Assembly (NCBI GenBank): GCA_018665505.1
Contig: JABJCS010000134.1
Coordinates: 1 to 9,528 of the forward strand
Reading direction: 5' to 3'
Length of the DNA stretch: 9,528 bases
Origin: Alphaproteobacteria bacterium
GTDB lineage: Bacteria > Pseudomonadota > Alphaproteobacteria > UBA8366
Shown here: positions 4,449 to 8,878 of the stretch, piece by piece
Layout: each line of letters starts with the position of its first letter
How positions within the stretch are numbered: position 1 is the stretch's first letter
Position numbers and translations under genes: made by a program
The notes under the pieces: generated by a model
What the model saw: the letters and a program-made list of their open reading frames with translations, nothing else
What the model was told of the DNA's origin: nothing
The model's database searches: none

Positions 4449-5552
4449 TTAATAGCGCGGGTCGGTGGTCTCGGCATGTTGGCTCAAACGCGGCATCACG
4501 TCTTCGGCAAGACGGCGCATGGAACCTCGCCATAAATCCTTGTCGTCCCAATCGTGCCCGGTCATGAGTAAAGTGCCGAAAGGTCCGACCTCTTCGCGAT
4601 AGGCAATCAAACGATCCAAGACTGTGTCCGCATCCCCGGCGATCACTTGATCTTCCAGCGCTTCATTCACCCGCGCGGCAACGAACTCTTCCCGCTCCTG
4701 CACGGTCGCGTCCATCATATTGCGCTTGGCCTCGAGGGTCCGAAGATAGTGGAAATAATGCCTGAATCCACCTTCCGCTTGGGCCACGTATTCGTCTGCT
4801 TGCGCATTGCTCTCCGCCACCAACACGCTGCGGCCCGCACGCCAATTCTCGGGATCGGGCCGCTTGCCGAGAAGCTCCCGCTGATTGCAGTAATCCTCCC
4901 ACTGGCTCTTGATGAAACCGGAAGGTACGAAATTCCCGGATATCGGAATCCAGTCGCGTTCCGCCAAGAGTTTCGAGGCACCTGATTGCTGGCTCCGCAT
5001 TGCATAGGCGATCGGCGGTTTCGGTTGCTGCAAAGGCTTCGGCATGCGCCCGACGCCCACACCATCCTCGATGAAATCCTTCAAAGTGACATTCCAGAAA
5101 TCGCCCTTGAATTCTATCGGCGCGTCCTGGGTCCAGAGCATTTCCATGATGTCGACACATTCCACCATCATCTCGTAGGAGCGGTCTCGGTCGACCCCGA
5201 AGATTTCGGAATCGCTAATCAACCCCCCGGGCCCGATACCGACCAATGTCCGTCCACCACTGAGCTGATCAAACATGGCGATCTGCATGCCGAGTTTGAC
5301 CGGGTGATGGTACGAGAGATTGAGGACCGCGGTGCCGAACTTGATGTTCTTGGTCTGATGAATCACGGTCGCCAAAAACAGATAGGGATCAGTGATCGGC
5401 TCGGAGACGGAGGTTTGATGTTCACCGATCCAGGCTTCACTAAAACCGAGTTGGTCGGCTAGAATCACCGCTTCCCGATTCTCCTCCATGACTTCCCGAT
5501 ATACCCGCTCCTTGGGATGTAACGGCATCGCGAAATATCCGAGATGAACCAC
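4449..5552 (-). CDS. LLM-class flavin-dependent oxidoreductase (luciferase-like monooxygenase)
   Basis: A 367-residue TIM-barrel flavin monooxygenase of the bacterial luciferase-like family, which uses reduced FMN supplied by a separate reductase. Visible family segments are G-F-S-E-A-W-I-G-E-H-Q (36-46), the strand T-A-V-L-N-L-S-Y-H-H-P (74-84) and F-D-Q-L-S-G-G-R-T-L-V-G-I-G-P-G-G (94-110), plus a G-D-A-D-T-V segment near the C-terminus. The start is GTG at 5552 with GGAG about 9 bases upstream; no earlier start fits as well. It is the first gene of a leftward set with the FAD oxidoreductase and PuuD-like gene. Upstream it diverges from the AT-rich tcmP cassette, and I cannot pick a convincing promoter for it. 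The substrate is unknown; the family covers alkanes, terpenes, sulfonates and others. Confidence 0.85.
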   Translation of the reverse strand: MVHLGYFAMPLHPKERVYREVMEENREAVILADQLGFSEAWIGEHQTSVSEPITDPYLFLATVIHQTKNIKFGTAVLNLSYHHPVKLGMQIAMFDQLSGGRTLVGIGPGGLISDSEIFGVDRDRSYEMMVECVDIMEMLWTQDAPIEFKGDFWNVTLKDFIEDGVGVGRMPKPLQQPKPPIAYAMRSQQSGASKLLAERDWIPISGNFVPSGFIKSQWEDYCNQRELLGKRPDPENWRAGRSVLVAESNAQADEYVAQAEGGFRHYFHYLRTLEAKRNMMDATVQEREEFVAARVNEALEDQVIAGDADTVLDRLIAYREEVGPFGTLLMTGHDWDDKDLWRGSMRRLAEDVMPRLSQHAETTDPRY

Positions 5553-5660
5553 GATCTAATGCTCCGTGACGACAGTTTGATGAGTAAAAGTAGGCCAGCA
5601 TTGTCTCTAAACCATCGGTCGAAGTTTGCTTTAACAAAATAGTATAAAAAATTCCTAAAC

Positions 5661-5689
5661 TTTACATTGAACTAAGAAGGAGATAAATT
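5661..5689 (+). promoter_or_regulatory. Possible promoter of the tcmP cassette
   Basis: TTTACA (5661-5666) and TAAATT (5684-5689) are separated by 17 bases, matching the -35 and -10 consensus at 5 and 4 of 6 positions. The stretch is very AT-rich, so near-matches arise easily (TATAAA at 5643-5648 is another). This one leaves a leader of about 20 bases before the tcmP ribosome binding site. Confidence 0.3.
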
Positions 5690-5714
5690 TTTAAGAACAT
5701 AATAGGAACAAATA

Positions 5715-6587
5715 ATGAGTGGACACCGATTTGGCGGATCGTGGACAGAAGAAAAATTGAAGAGTGTTGGAAGTTACCTGTCACGATATACAACAGCACT
5801 GAAATACCAATCTTTCGAGTTGGTATATTTCGACGCATTTGCTGGGACAGGTGATCGAGAAGAGGATCCGAAAATTTTTCCGCTATTCAATGATGATCAA
5901 GAATGGCTCAAAGGAGAAGGAATCTTTAAAGGTTCGGCACGGATCTCGCTGGAAACAGAGCCTGCATTCGACAGGTTTATCTTTGTCGAAAAGAGCAAAC
6001 GCAAATTTGATCAATTAAAAAAATTGGCCGCTGAATTTCCTAACAAATCAGATCACATTCAATTTGTCCGTAATGATGCGAACTCCGCAATAGAGGAATT
6101 TTGCCGAACTACAAATTGGCGACGTACACGCGCGGTCATGTTTCTTGATCCTTATGGCATGCAGGTGGATTGGAAAACGATCCAAATGATCGCCGCCACC
6201 AAATCTATAGACCTTTGGTATCTAGTTCCGGCAATGATCGGAATTGCGCGTCTATTAAAGAACGACGGCAACATTCCGGAGCCTTGGGAAGATCGCTTGG
6301 ATCGTAACCTAGGTACAACGAGTTGGCGGGAAGCGTTTTTCGTTGAAGAGACGGAAAAGAATTTATTTGGCGAAATGTCTTCCCATGTATCGAAGACCGC
6401 TGATGTCGGAAGTATAGAGAAATTTATTTTCGAACGTTTATCGTCGGAATTTGAAGCCGCTGCCGAACACGGTCTCCCTCTGAGAAATTCAAGGAACCAA
6501 TGCATGTATCTGTTAATGTTTGCATGCGGTAACAAACGTGGTGCTAGAGTTGCTCTACCTATCGCACGGCATATTCTTGGATATTGA
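5715..6587 (+). CDS. tcmP: Three-Cys-motif partner protein TcmP
   Basis: A 290-residue protein with the family's signature N-terminus, H-R-F-G-G-S-W-T-E-E-K-L (4-15), and location directly before a DUF5131 three-Cys protein, which is what the family is named for. Start ATG 5715 has AGGAA 6 bases upstream. I also see methyltransferase-like motifs: Y-F-D-A-F-A-G-T-G (38-46) like motif I, F-I-F-V-E-K-S (88-94) with an acidic Glu92 like motif II, R-N-D-A-N (119-123) like motif III, and F-L-D-P-Y-G (143-148) like motif IV. They suggest a Rossmann methyltransferase-like fold; this is inference, and the cellular role is unknown. No membrane segment or signal peptide is visible. It is much AT-richer than the flanking genes, consistent with transfer. 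Twelve bases separate it from the partner gene, so they are almost certainly co-transcribed. Confidence 0.85.
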   Translation: MSGHRFGGSWTEEKLKSVGSYLSRYTTALKYQSFELVYFDAFAGTGDREEDPKIFPLFNDDQEWLKGEGIFKGSARISLETEPAFDRFIFVEKSKRKFDQLKKLAAEFPNKSDHIQFVRNDANSAIEEFCRTTNWRRTRAVMFLDPYGMQVDWKTIQMIAATKSIDLWYLVPAMIGIARLLKNDGNIPEPWEDRLDRNLGTTSWREAFFVEETEKNLFGEMSSHVSKTADVGSIEKFIFERLSSEFEAAAEHGLPLRNSRNQCMYLLMFACGNKRGARVALPIARHILGY

Positions 6588-6599
6588 TCGGAGGGATCA

Positions 6600-7367
6600 T
6601 TGGCTCAAAGCGACATAGAGTGGACTGAGGTAACATGGAATCCGCTCGCAGGCTGTAGCGTTCTGTCTCCTGGCTGCTCAAATTGCTATGCGATGCGCAT
6701 GGCTGCGCGTTTGGAAGCGATGGGCCATGCCAAATATGCTGGCACCACGAGGAAATCCGGAACGCGCTCGGTTTGGACCGGTAAGACAAATATCGACGAG
6801 TCTGCTTTACTCATGCCTCTGTCTTGGAAAAAACCGCGCCGAGTGTTCGTAAATTCAATGAGCGACCTCTATCAAGATTCTATACCAACAGAATTCATCG
6901 GCCGCGTTTGGAAGGTTATGGAAGAAGCCGGTCAGCACACGTTTCAAATCCTGACAAAACGTCCAGAAAGAATGGACAGAGTGCATCGCGAATTAAACCT
7001 GAAGCCGCTCAATAACGTTTGGTTAGGCACCTCCATTGAAAGCAGCGAGTTTTTGGGCCGACTAAATACGCTAAGACAAATTCCAGCCACCGTGCGATTT
7101 ATCTCGTTTGAACCGCTGCTCGATAGCGTTGGAAATCTAAATTTAGACCAAATCCACTGGGCCATCGTCGGTGGAGAATCCGGTCCAGGCGCGAGGCCAA
7201 TGAAATCCGAATGGGTCGAAGAAATTCAGGCCGCGTGTCGTCGAAGCAATACCGCGTTCTTTTTCAAGCAATGGGGCGGTACACGGAAAAAGCAGACTGG
7301 CCGTAAGTTCAAGAATCAATATTGGGACGAGTACCCCTACCCCGAATACACGGCATCAATGAGCTGA
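6600..7367 (+). CDS. DUF5131 / phage Gp37-Gp68 family three-Cys-motif protein
   Basis: A 255-residue protein with TTG start at 6600, fixed by a strong GGAGGG (6590-6595) 5 bases upstream and by the standard family N-terminus I-E-W-T-E-V-T-W-N-P (6-15). The three cysteines are Cys19, Cys26 and Cys29 (C-x6-C-x2-C, followed by Tyr-Ala). Further family blocks are V-N-S-M-S-D-L-Y (84-91), I-L-T-K-R-P-E-R-M (117-125), V-W-L-G-T-S-I-E (140-147), I-S-F-E-P-L-L (168-174), V-G-G-E-S-G-P (190-196) and F-F-K-Q-W-G-G (221-227). Evenly spaced strand-like blocks after an N-terminal Cys cluster are reminiscent of a radical-SAM or other Fe-S TIM-barrel enzyme, but the spacing is not the classic C-x3-C-x2-C and no activity is established to my knowledge. 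Second gene of the tcmP pair. The last 31 bases overlap the opposite-strand gene, so the final residues after W-D-E-Y-P are read antisense to it. Confidence 0.85.
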   Translation: MAQSDIEWTEVTWNPLAGCSVLSPGCSNCYAMRMAARLEAMGHAKYAGTTRKSGTRSVWTGKTNIDESALLMPLSWKKPRRVFVNSMSDLYQDSIPTEFIGRVWKVMEEAGQHTFQILTKRPERMDRVHRELNLKPLNNVWLGTSIESSEFLGRLNTLRQIPATVRFISFEPLLDSVGNLNLDQIHWAIVGGESGPGARPMKSEWVEEIQAACRRSNTAFFFKQWGGTRKKQTGRKFKNQYWDEYPYPEYTASMS

Positions 7368-8878
7368 GGCCCGTCCGCCGCGAGCGCCGCTTCCAGCTTT
7401 GCCGTGAAGTCCTCCGCTGTCTCCGCCCGGTGACCTTCCATGCCCATGCCCTTGGCCAGATGCGCCCAGTCGATATCGGGATTGCCGATATCGAAGAGGC
7501 TCTCCGCCTTGGGACCGAGTTCGTTGGCGCCGGTCTTGAAATACTCGTGCTCTAGGATTTTATAGCGCCGATTGGTCAGGATGACCGTGACGATATCCAA
7601 ACTCTCGCGCGCATGGGTCCAGAGCGCTTGGTTCGTATACATGCCGCCGCCGTCGGACTGGATGCAGATGACCTTGCGGTCCGGGCAAGCCACCGCCGCA
7701 CCGGTTGCGACCGGGATCGCTTGACCGATGGAGCCACCCGTCAGGCTGAGCCAATCGTGCGGAACCGCTCCGCGCGTAGCGCCGAAAATTGGCCCGCCGG
7801 ACGTCGTCAGCTCCGCCGACACAATGGCGTTCTCCGGCATCAAGGCACCGATAGCCGCGCCGACACTCTTGGGGTTGAGGGCACCGGTCGGCTTCTCCGG
7901 CACCATGCTGTCGTAGGATTGACCCGGCGCGGTCGCGTCCAATGCCTCGGCGAGCGCTTCCAAGGCGCCCTCCGCATCGTCCGCCGGGCCCGCCAATACA
8001 TGCGTCGGGACACCTTCCGGGATCAACAGGCTGGGATAGCCTTCGTAGGCCAGATAGGCGACCGGCGGCCTGGTCCCGGCTAGGATGATGTTCTTGGCCG
8101 ATCCCAAGGTCTCGAGCGCGATCGGCTGATCGCCCGGCAAGGGGCCGTATTGTCCGCGCCCCGCGCCTCGTGCGGTTCGGGCAGCGAAAACCCCGACCAT
8201 CAACCGGCAACCCGTCTTGGCGACGATGCGGTTGGCGCCGGCGAGACCGCGCTCCGATAGGCCCGTGCCGTTGAGCAGCATGATGGCGGTGTCGTCACTG
8301 GCGAGGGCGGCGGCGATTTTTTCGATCTCTTGATCGGAAGCGCGGCCACGTGGTTTCACGGGCGCCGGGGTCGCCGGAGTGGCATCGCTGCCCCAGGTCG
8401 CGTCTTGCGGCACGATCAACGTCGCGACTTGTCCTTCGTGCGCGGCGGCGACCGCATCGACCGCGTCCTGCCCGACCGTAGCCGGGCTGCTCGCCCGTCG
8501 CACCCAGCCGGAAATCGCCGTCGCCAAACCTTCGAGATTGGCGGAGAGCAACGGATCGTGCGGGCTATGATAGCTCGGGTAGTCACCGGCGATACTGACG
8601 ACGGGGCTATAAGCGCGCTTAGCATTGTGTAAATTCGCCAGTCCATTGGCGAGACCGGGGCCTACATGCAGCAAAGTCGCCGCGGGCTTTCCGGTCATGC
8701 GGGCGTAGCCATCCGCCGCGCCCGTACAGACGCCCTCGAACAGACCCAGGATCGGGCGGAATTCCGGCACCGCATCGAATTCCTTGATGATTTCCATCTC
8801 GGTCGAGCCGGGGTTGGTGAAGACGTGGTCGACGCCGGCGGCGACCAGGCTGCGGATAAGACTTTCTGCGCCGTTCAT
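7337..8878 (-). CDS. Thiamine-diphosphate-dependent enzyme, acetolactate synthase large subunit / benzoylformate decarboxylase-like
   Basis: A 513-residue three-domain ThDP enzyme, shorter than anabolic IlvB and close to the roughly 514-residue acetolactate-synthase-like/MdlC-like group. The Pyr domain carries the cofactor-activating Glu48 (G-L-F-E-G-V-C-T-G-A-A-D-G-Y-A-R). His71 in L-L-H-V-G-P-G sits where benzoylformate decarboxylase has an active-site His. The PP domain has S-D-G-G-G-M-Y-T (408-415) with Asp409 and Asn436 as likely metal ligands; the usual G-D-G is S-D-G here. No IlvN-like small subunit is adjacent. A 2-oxoacid decarboxylase or carboligase in catabolism is more likely than valine/isoleucine synthesis. 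ATG 8878 has GAGG about 6 bases upstream. It starts 20 bases after the acyl-CoA synthetase stop, so the two are probably one operon. Its last 31 bases overlap the DUF5131 gene tail to tail. Confidence 0.85.
   Translation of the reverse strand: MNGAESLIRSLVAAGVDHVFTNPGSTEMEIIKEFDAVPEFRPILGLFEGVCTGAADGYARMTGKPAATLLHVGPGLANGLANLHNAKRAYSPVVSIAGDYPSYHSPHDPLLSANLEGLATAISGWVRRASSPATVGQDAVDAVAAAHEGQVATLIVPQDATWGSDATPATPAPVKPRGRASDQEIEKIAAALASDDTAIMLLNGTGLSERGLAGANRIVAKTGCRLMVGVFAARTARGAGRGQYGPLPGDQPIALETLGSAKNIILAGTRPPVAYLAYEGYPSLLIPEGVPTHVLAGPADDAEGALEALAEALDATAPGQSYDSMVPEKPTGALNPKSVGAAIGALMPENAIVSAELTTSGGPIFGATRGAVPHDWLSLTGGSIGQAIPVATGAAVACPDRKVICIQSDGGGMYTNQALWTHARESLDIVTVILTNRRYKILEHEYFKTGANELGPKAESLFDIGNPDIDWAHLAKGMGMEGHRAETAEDFTAKLEAALAADGPQLIDAVYSG

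Follow-up and report, generated by a model that had tools for sequence, protein, structure and literature searches.

TcmP and DUF5131: a widely paired, already catalogued anti-phage candidate with predicted methyltransferase and radical-SAM folds

The closest described systems to the gene pair considered here are PDC-M41 and PDC-M30, two sister entries of PADLOC-DB that each combine TcmP with DUF5131. According to the passages of two papers that deal with them, PDC entries were proposed through 'guilt-by-embedding' and count as candidates that for the most part lack validation (PMC12988326, PMC10855318). The passage on PDC-M30 gives it as predicted in 32 of 100 P. aeruginosa panel strains, with 68.8% of these 32 phage-resistant (PMC10855318), a figure that is a correlation and concerns the sister type only. 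The window, which is the whole stretch of 9,528 nucleotides analysed from the alphaproteobacterial contig JABJCS010000134.1, contains adjacent matches to both subunits of PDC-M41, M41A (E 4.8e-106) and M41B (3.7e-103). Both subunits of PDC-M30 are matched too, with the window TcmP far weaker against M30A (E 4.4e-7). Nothing that defines these types differs in the window copy, which lacks a defence-island setting. The pair itself is not new; it is the already catalogued anti-phage candidate PDC-M41, and the window copy is a standard member of this known candidate family. No paper naming PDC-M41 was found in the open-access literature searched, and the same search, mostly at listing level, found no study of function for TcmP, three-Cys-motif, DUF5131 or PDC-M41. 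New here are the near-total pairing, the variable gene order, the replacement of one partner, and the predicted folds with their conserved motifs.

The pair consists of two open reading frames (ORFs), in which SAM denotes S-adenosylmethionine:

5715..6587, plus strand: TcmP, ATG ORF of 290 amino acids; predicted Rossmann SAM-dependent methyltransferase with DxFxGxG (residues 40-46) and DP[YF]G (residues 145-148)
6600..7367, plus strand: DUF5131 (Gp37/Gp68 family), TTG ORF of 255 amino acids; predicted radical-SAM fold with CX6CX2C (residues 19, 26 and 29)

The gap between the genes is 12 bases, which places TcmP as the TIGR04474 definition has it, a 'gene beside three-Cys-motif protein'. Both products are over their curated family cut-offs, TcmP with 194.2 bits against TIGR04474 (cut-off 53) and DUF5131 with 305.9 bits against PF07505 (cut-off 28.9). 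The TTG start of DUF5131 is in agreement with the many relatives that open with M-A-x-S-D-I-E-W.

A single scan of 84,980 species genomes with two peptide patterns gave 322 TcmP relatives, and the best 80 were kept. Because these were chosen as the best matches to the window type they are not a random sample; two genome samples, of 385 alphaproteobacterial and 194 cyanobacterial genomes, are closer to random. Over all 181 TcmP loci, DUF5131 was alongside in 166, a SplB-like radical SAM protein in 12 and a contig edge in 3. Two of the loci are duplicates (L027 = L168, L062 = L134), and without them the counts are 165, 11 and 3 of 179. In the best 80 genome loci DUF5131 lay within 500 bp of TcmP in 74, with TcmP upstream on the same strand in 66, a convergent arrangement in 7 and DUF5131 upstream on the same strand in 1; five of the remaining six have a SplB-like partner, and the sixth locus (L065) ends 45 bp from the TcmP gene. 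The viral contigs had DUF5131 at 40 of 41 TcmP loci, 35 of them convergent, the exception (L102) lying at a contig end; at least six of these viral loci closely duplicate one another (L087, L089, L103 to L106). The alphaproteobacterial sample held 30 TcmP genes over the cut-off in 29 genomes, and DUF5131 was within 1 kb of 29; the TcmP gene without it has its start 138 bp from the edge of its contig. Of the 59 DUF5131 matches in the same sample 29 were paired and 30 had no over-cut-off TcmP within 2 kb. Thirty-three of the cyanobacterial genomes had TcmP (34 matches over the cut-off), and the 30 loci examined had DUF5131 in 23 cases and the SplB-like protein in 7. Since gene order varies, the tail-to-tail arrangement included, the genes are kept together without one fixed operon. 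The pair spans many phyla and phages and is kept together whatever the gene order.

These results partly support what had been proposed in a first-pass annotation made from the letters of this DNA. The two-gene unit with its 12-base gap was borne out, as was the co-occurrence of the families; adjacency is near-total, and the finding named there as refuting, that the genes are rarely adjacent elsewhere, did not arise. DUF5131 members do occur in phages: viral contigs carry DUF5131 with TcmP, and 13 phage stretches carry it without. A fusion, which was to be looked for, was not seen: the profiles found no ORF with both domains in 185 loci. The function had been called unknown. Taken literally that is right, yet the pair already has a catalogue entry as a defence candidate, and its predicted folds point to a methyltransferase and a radical-SAM enzyme.

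Three Chloroflexota loci (L042, L047 and L069) have a convergent, low-scoring DUF5131 of 95-104 bits, against about 270-340 bits in most genome loci, and form a divergent subgroup.

The replacement of DUF5131 is found in some cyanobacteria and in one Limisphaerales genome; 'SplB-like' is the label used here for the group of replacing proteins. This partner is divergent from TcmP in L013, L024, L027 and L053 and lies downstream on the same strand in L058. The seven cyanobacterial sample loci, where the partners were detected with a profile built from two of the replacing proteins, comprise four divergent and three same-strand downstream cases (L027 is also among the seven). DUF5131 and the SplB-like protein occurred together in none of the 30 cyanobacterial loci, with about 1.5 kb inspected on each side. 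All four replacing proteins scanned are over the PF04055 cut-off, and in NCBIfam they come nearest to the radical SAM families PA0069, Rv2578c and mobile-pair B, each time under the cut-off of the model. Their cluster motif is CX3CX2C. A profile alignment of DUF5131 with the SplB-like proteins covered 217 columns, matched the three cysteines and placed VNSMSD on LCSGTD (P 4.4e-4, one comparison, six partner sequences). The replacement was seen with both short TcmP (L167, L168) and long TcmP (L175, L178 to L181) and may therefore have occurred more than once. In two cyanobacterial loci (L013:7897-9861 and L053:7894-9849) the SplB-like partner carries LAGLIDADG intein-like inserts at the cluster-cysteine loop, and both partners match, at scores under its cut-off, the model of the Rv2578c family, which is known to bear inteins.

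The predicted structure of TcmP is that of a Rossmann methyltransferase, closest to RlmJ, the 23S rRNA A2030 N6-methyltransferase, and Trm1, which acts on tRNA G26. The protein has the predicted Rossmann fold, motif I and acidic motif IV of the class I SAM methyltransferases, and DP[YF]G is invariant in 83 of 83 TcmP sequences. It differs from both relatives by having no PF04378 match (up to E 0.1) and no PF02005 match; its motif is DP[YF]G and not the DPP[YF] of RlmJ, and a profile alignment to one Trm1 was not significant (P 0.095). Trm1 presumably has a DPFG motif, for which the literature search found no paper. A sequence search of the PDB gave no useful match. A family missing from the structure-comparison lists was not taken as proof of difference.

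In the comparison of the predicted DUF5131 structure the first 43 rows are radical SAM enzymes, with spore photoproduct lyase (SPL) closest, about 2 Z above viperin. Strands and helices alternate as in a partial TIM barrel, which is a prediction and not a solved structure. The three cysteines of the window protein (C19, C26 and C29) are kept in 79 of 79 sequences. Their spacing is CX6CX2C and the canonical CX3CX2C is not present; up to E 0.1 the only matches were PF07505 and a weak GP88, with none to PF04055 or to PF20903, the SPL family. Opposite the SCYTD cysteine of the SPL proteins used, which we take to be the H-donor C140, DUF5131 had no cysteine but a gap beside the invariant S-M (weak alignment, P 0.02). 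DUF5131 differs from its best fold match in family and spacing and, as far as this weak alignment shows, in the aligned cysteine; a SplB-like protein stands in for it at the 12 loci above. By the predicted fold and the conserved cysteines DUF5131 would be a radical-SAM-fold enzyme with a [4Fe-4S] cluster on Cys19/26/29, and for both predicted folds nucleic-acid enzymes rank first.

A TcmP tree of 107 rows required 34 phylum changes, between a possible minimum of 18 and a shuffle mean of 47.1; the rows include many binned genomes, and repeated phylum changes do not prove transfer. The history of TcmP probably combines some inheritance with much exchange. Distances for TcmP and DUF5131 were correlated (Mantel r 0.67 for 107 pairs, 0.46 for 68 and 0.74 for 40), and 0 of 2000 permutations were as high, although common ancestry by itself yields part of such a correlation. 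The window TcmP clusters with Magnetospirillum and two viral loci (92/90, under the starred level). Over the cut-off, TcmP occurred in just 29 of the 385 alphaproteobacterial genomes and 33 of the 194 from cyanobacteria. The first-pass annotation had proposed a conserved and mobile unit; the conserved pairing and the sporadic, cross-phylum spread are strongly supported, and the other result named there as refuting, a fixed core set with host-like phylogeny, did not appear in the two genome samples; the window copy itself is a possible mobile unit.

The most economical reading is a methyltransferase and radical SAM module that acts on nucleic acid. TcmP, as an RlmJ/Trm1-type Rossmann methyltransferase, would bind SAM and methylate or otherwise prepare a DNA or RNA base. 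DUF5131 would hold the [4Fe-4S] cluster, cleave a second SAM to the 5'-deoxyadenosyl radical and alter the same base. The pairing, the partner replacement, the predicted folds and the conserved motifs come from the computation; the cluster, the methyl transfer, the shared substrate and its type are what we infer, and the module may pass between genomes and phages. Its order of steps would resemble that of wybutosine synthesis, in which the tRNA methyltransferase Trm5 precedes TYW1; TYW1 requires an extra cluster and pyruvate. That this two-enzyme base modification most likely guards its carrier from phages or rival mobile elements, either through a mark on self or through a change to the nucleic acid of the invader, is suggested tentatively and has somewhat less than an even chance; the module by itself, leaving the defence role aside, is given better chances. 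The pair is widespread and defence-listed. Seen as a methyltransferase and radical SAM module whose second enzyme has been replaced in nature, its 'unknown function' becomes a prediction that nucleoside mass spectrometry can check. A bolder extension, in our estimate doubtful, takes TcmP systems for a large and overlooked class of immunity by radical-SAM hypermodification, in which a fixed methyltransferase and interchangeable radical SAM modules (DUF5131 or SplB-like) write an unseen base modification to tell self from invader.

The defence role is argued from the PADLOC listing, the published PDC-M30 correlation and a set of named contexts (Hachiman, Hna, BREX, Abi, McrC), chosen because they were annotated and with no control. 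Eleven plasmid records matched; eight were opened, six were annotated and four of the six had named defence genes. BREX adjoins the radical SAM version of the pair on a Nostoc plasmid, two Abi genes (AbiD E 1e-54) are near the pair on a Leisingera plasmid, and HamA and HamB of Hachiman are near it on an Agrobacterium plasmid. On a Nocardioides plasmid the nearby genes are N-6 methylase, AAA and McrC, the McrC-family protein having no PADLOC match. A Deinococcus plasmid has a DNA methyltransferase and an integrase near the pair, and an Acetobacter plasmid has nothing clear close to it. An unannotated stretch of S. meliloti pSymA has an 845-amino-acid ORF, followed in order by TcmP, a long gene resembling TcmP, and DUF5131. 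The ORF would be Hna; SMa2245 (Hna) and SMa2243 (TcmP) are listed together in the NolR table of PMC12445080. Two loci, L186:6343-12004 (S. meliloti) and L190:2196-10962 (Agrobacterium), share an arrangement of a helicase defence set (putative Hna and HamAB, respectively) followed by short TcmP and then convergent long TcmP and DUF5131, so that two TcmP types stand beside a single DUF5131.

The neighbour counts do not clearly favour a defence role. PADLOC matches around the 80 genome pairs gave no clear enrichment of near (<3 kb) over far (6 to 10 kb) neighbours in a sample of 136 of 338 near and 136 of 166 far genes, the far set being the first 136 out of 150 picks; incomplete genes and genes below 120 amino acids were left out, as were genes above 900 amino acids from the picks. 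Nor was there clear enrichment among 138 of 144 near genes of at least 130 amino acids at 28 of 29 alphaproteobacterial pairs, and the pair has no defence neighbours in the window. The near/far test is blunt, since its output counts families and not distinct genes and far genes may share islands. Pfam families seen among the 136 near genes were those of restriction, helicases and integrases besides many housekeeping ones, and no family occurred in more than four genes. The stand-alone module, possibly for defence, of the first-pass annotation stands as a catalogued candidate, with a weak defence association in the neighbour counts.

That weakness, the metabolic neighbours in the window and the versatility of radical SAM enzymes and Rossmann methyltransferases all favour an accessory pair of enzymes whose substrate is a protein, peptide or metabolite, with no link to nucleic acid or defence; with nucleic-acid enzymes at the top of both fold comparisons and phages and plasmids among the carriers, we consider it unlikely. 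A lesion-repair module, in which DUF5131 mends damaged bases like SPL while binding or flipping of such a base falls to TcmP, is judged just as improbable: in the weak alignment the putative H-donor cysteine has no counterpart in DUF5131, the methyltransferase-like partner is left with no role, and in two Gordonia phages the pair sits between integrase and immunity repressor, a position often taken by accessory genes expressed in lysogeny. Near-obligate adjacency, the number of two genes and the plasmid and phage carriers would suit a toxin-antitoxin or modify-and-reverse pair, one enzyme making a harmful base change and the other removing it. Such a pair is quite unlikely, as the genes are often not co-transcribed (the convergent viral loci, near copies included, and the divergent SplB-like partners described above) and about half of the alphaproteobacterial DUF5131 matches, 30 of 59, stand without an over-cut-off TcmP within 2 kb. 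A viperin-like maker of modified nucleotides that halt viral polymerases, with TcmP processing the product, is very unlikely given the higher Z of SPL for DUF5131 and the likeness of TcmP to nucleic-acid methyltransferases.

It is plausible that the pair at 5715-7367 of the window is an inserted element. TcmP has a G+C content of 43.8% and DUF5131 of 50.2%, against 55.7-65.0% in the seven other window genes (one truncated at the window end); at third positions the values are 0.40, 0.54 and 0.58-0.77. The description of the block as AT-rich holds clearly for TcmP and in mild form for DUF5131. The block had also been called inverted relative to all neighbours, which holds for the direct flanks, a luciferase-like oxidoreductase gene and a thiamine pyrophosphate (TPP)-enzyme gene, both on the minus strand, but not for the genes at 147-1013 and 1150-2136, which are on the plus strand. 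By Pfam the window neighbours belong mainly to ordinary metabolism, with one response-regulator protein. Two further features border the pair:

5553..5714, plus strand: AT-rich intergenic stretch ahead of TcmP, probably its promoter region, with a sigma-70-like match inside
7337..7367, no strand: overlap of 31 bp between the 3' ends of DUF5131 and of the TPP-enzyme gene (7337-8878, minus strand) convergent with it, from the ORF coordinates

The sigma-70-like match (9/12, at 5661-5689) is not above chance, with one seen in 5500-7450 and 2.9 expected from shuffles. The tRNA and Rfam scans found no tRNA and no Rfam family, the Pfam scan of nine window ORFs found no integrase, and no repeats bounding the pair were present in 5300-7600, only direct two-copy matches (12-13 nt) and imperfect inverted pairs (12-19 nt). 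A search with the luciferase-like neighbour in the 385 alphaproteobacterial genomes did not find an empty site, the best relative having 50% identity; no other window genes lay around its relatives in 20 loci, save a weak TPP-domain match in L212.

In the annotation of Gordonia phage BaxterFox, several short opposite-strand genes cover the DUF5131 region (L195:6948-8292), whereas the related Fairfaxidum (L243) has an annotated full DUF5131 gene. The possibility that phage DUF5131 without TcmP is a partner of a DNA methylase gained little backing and is kept as a lead, an annotated methyltransferase being present in the stretch inspected in only 5 of 13 records. In these 13 phage stretches (L230 to L242) the TcmP-less DUF5131 genes are longer than that of the window and often lie amid phage DNA-metabolism genes, with the annotated methyltransferase in those 5 and beside pyrophosphohydrolase or dNMP phosphatase genes in others.
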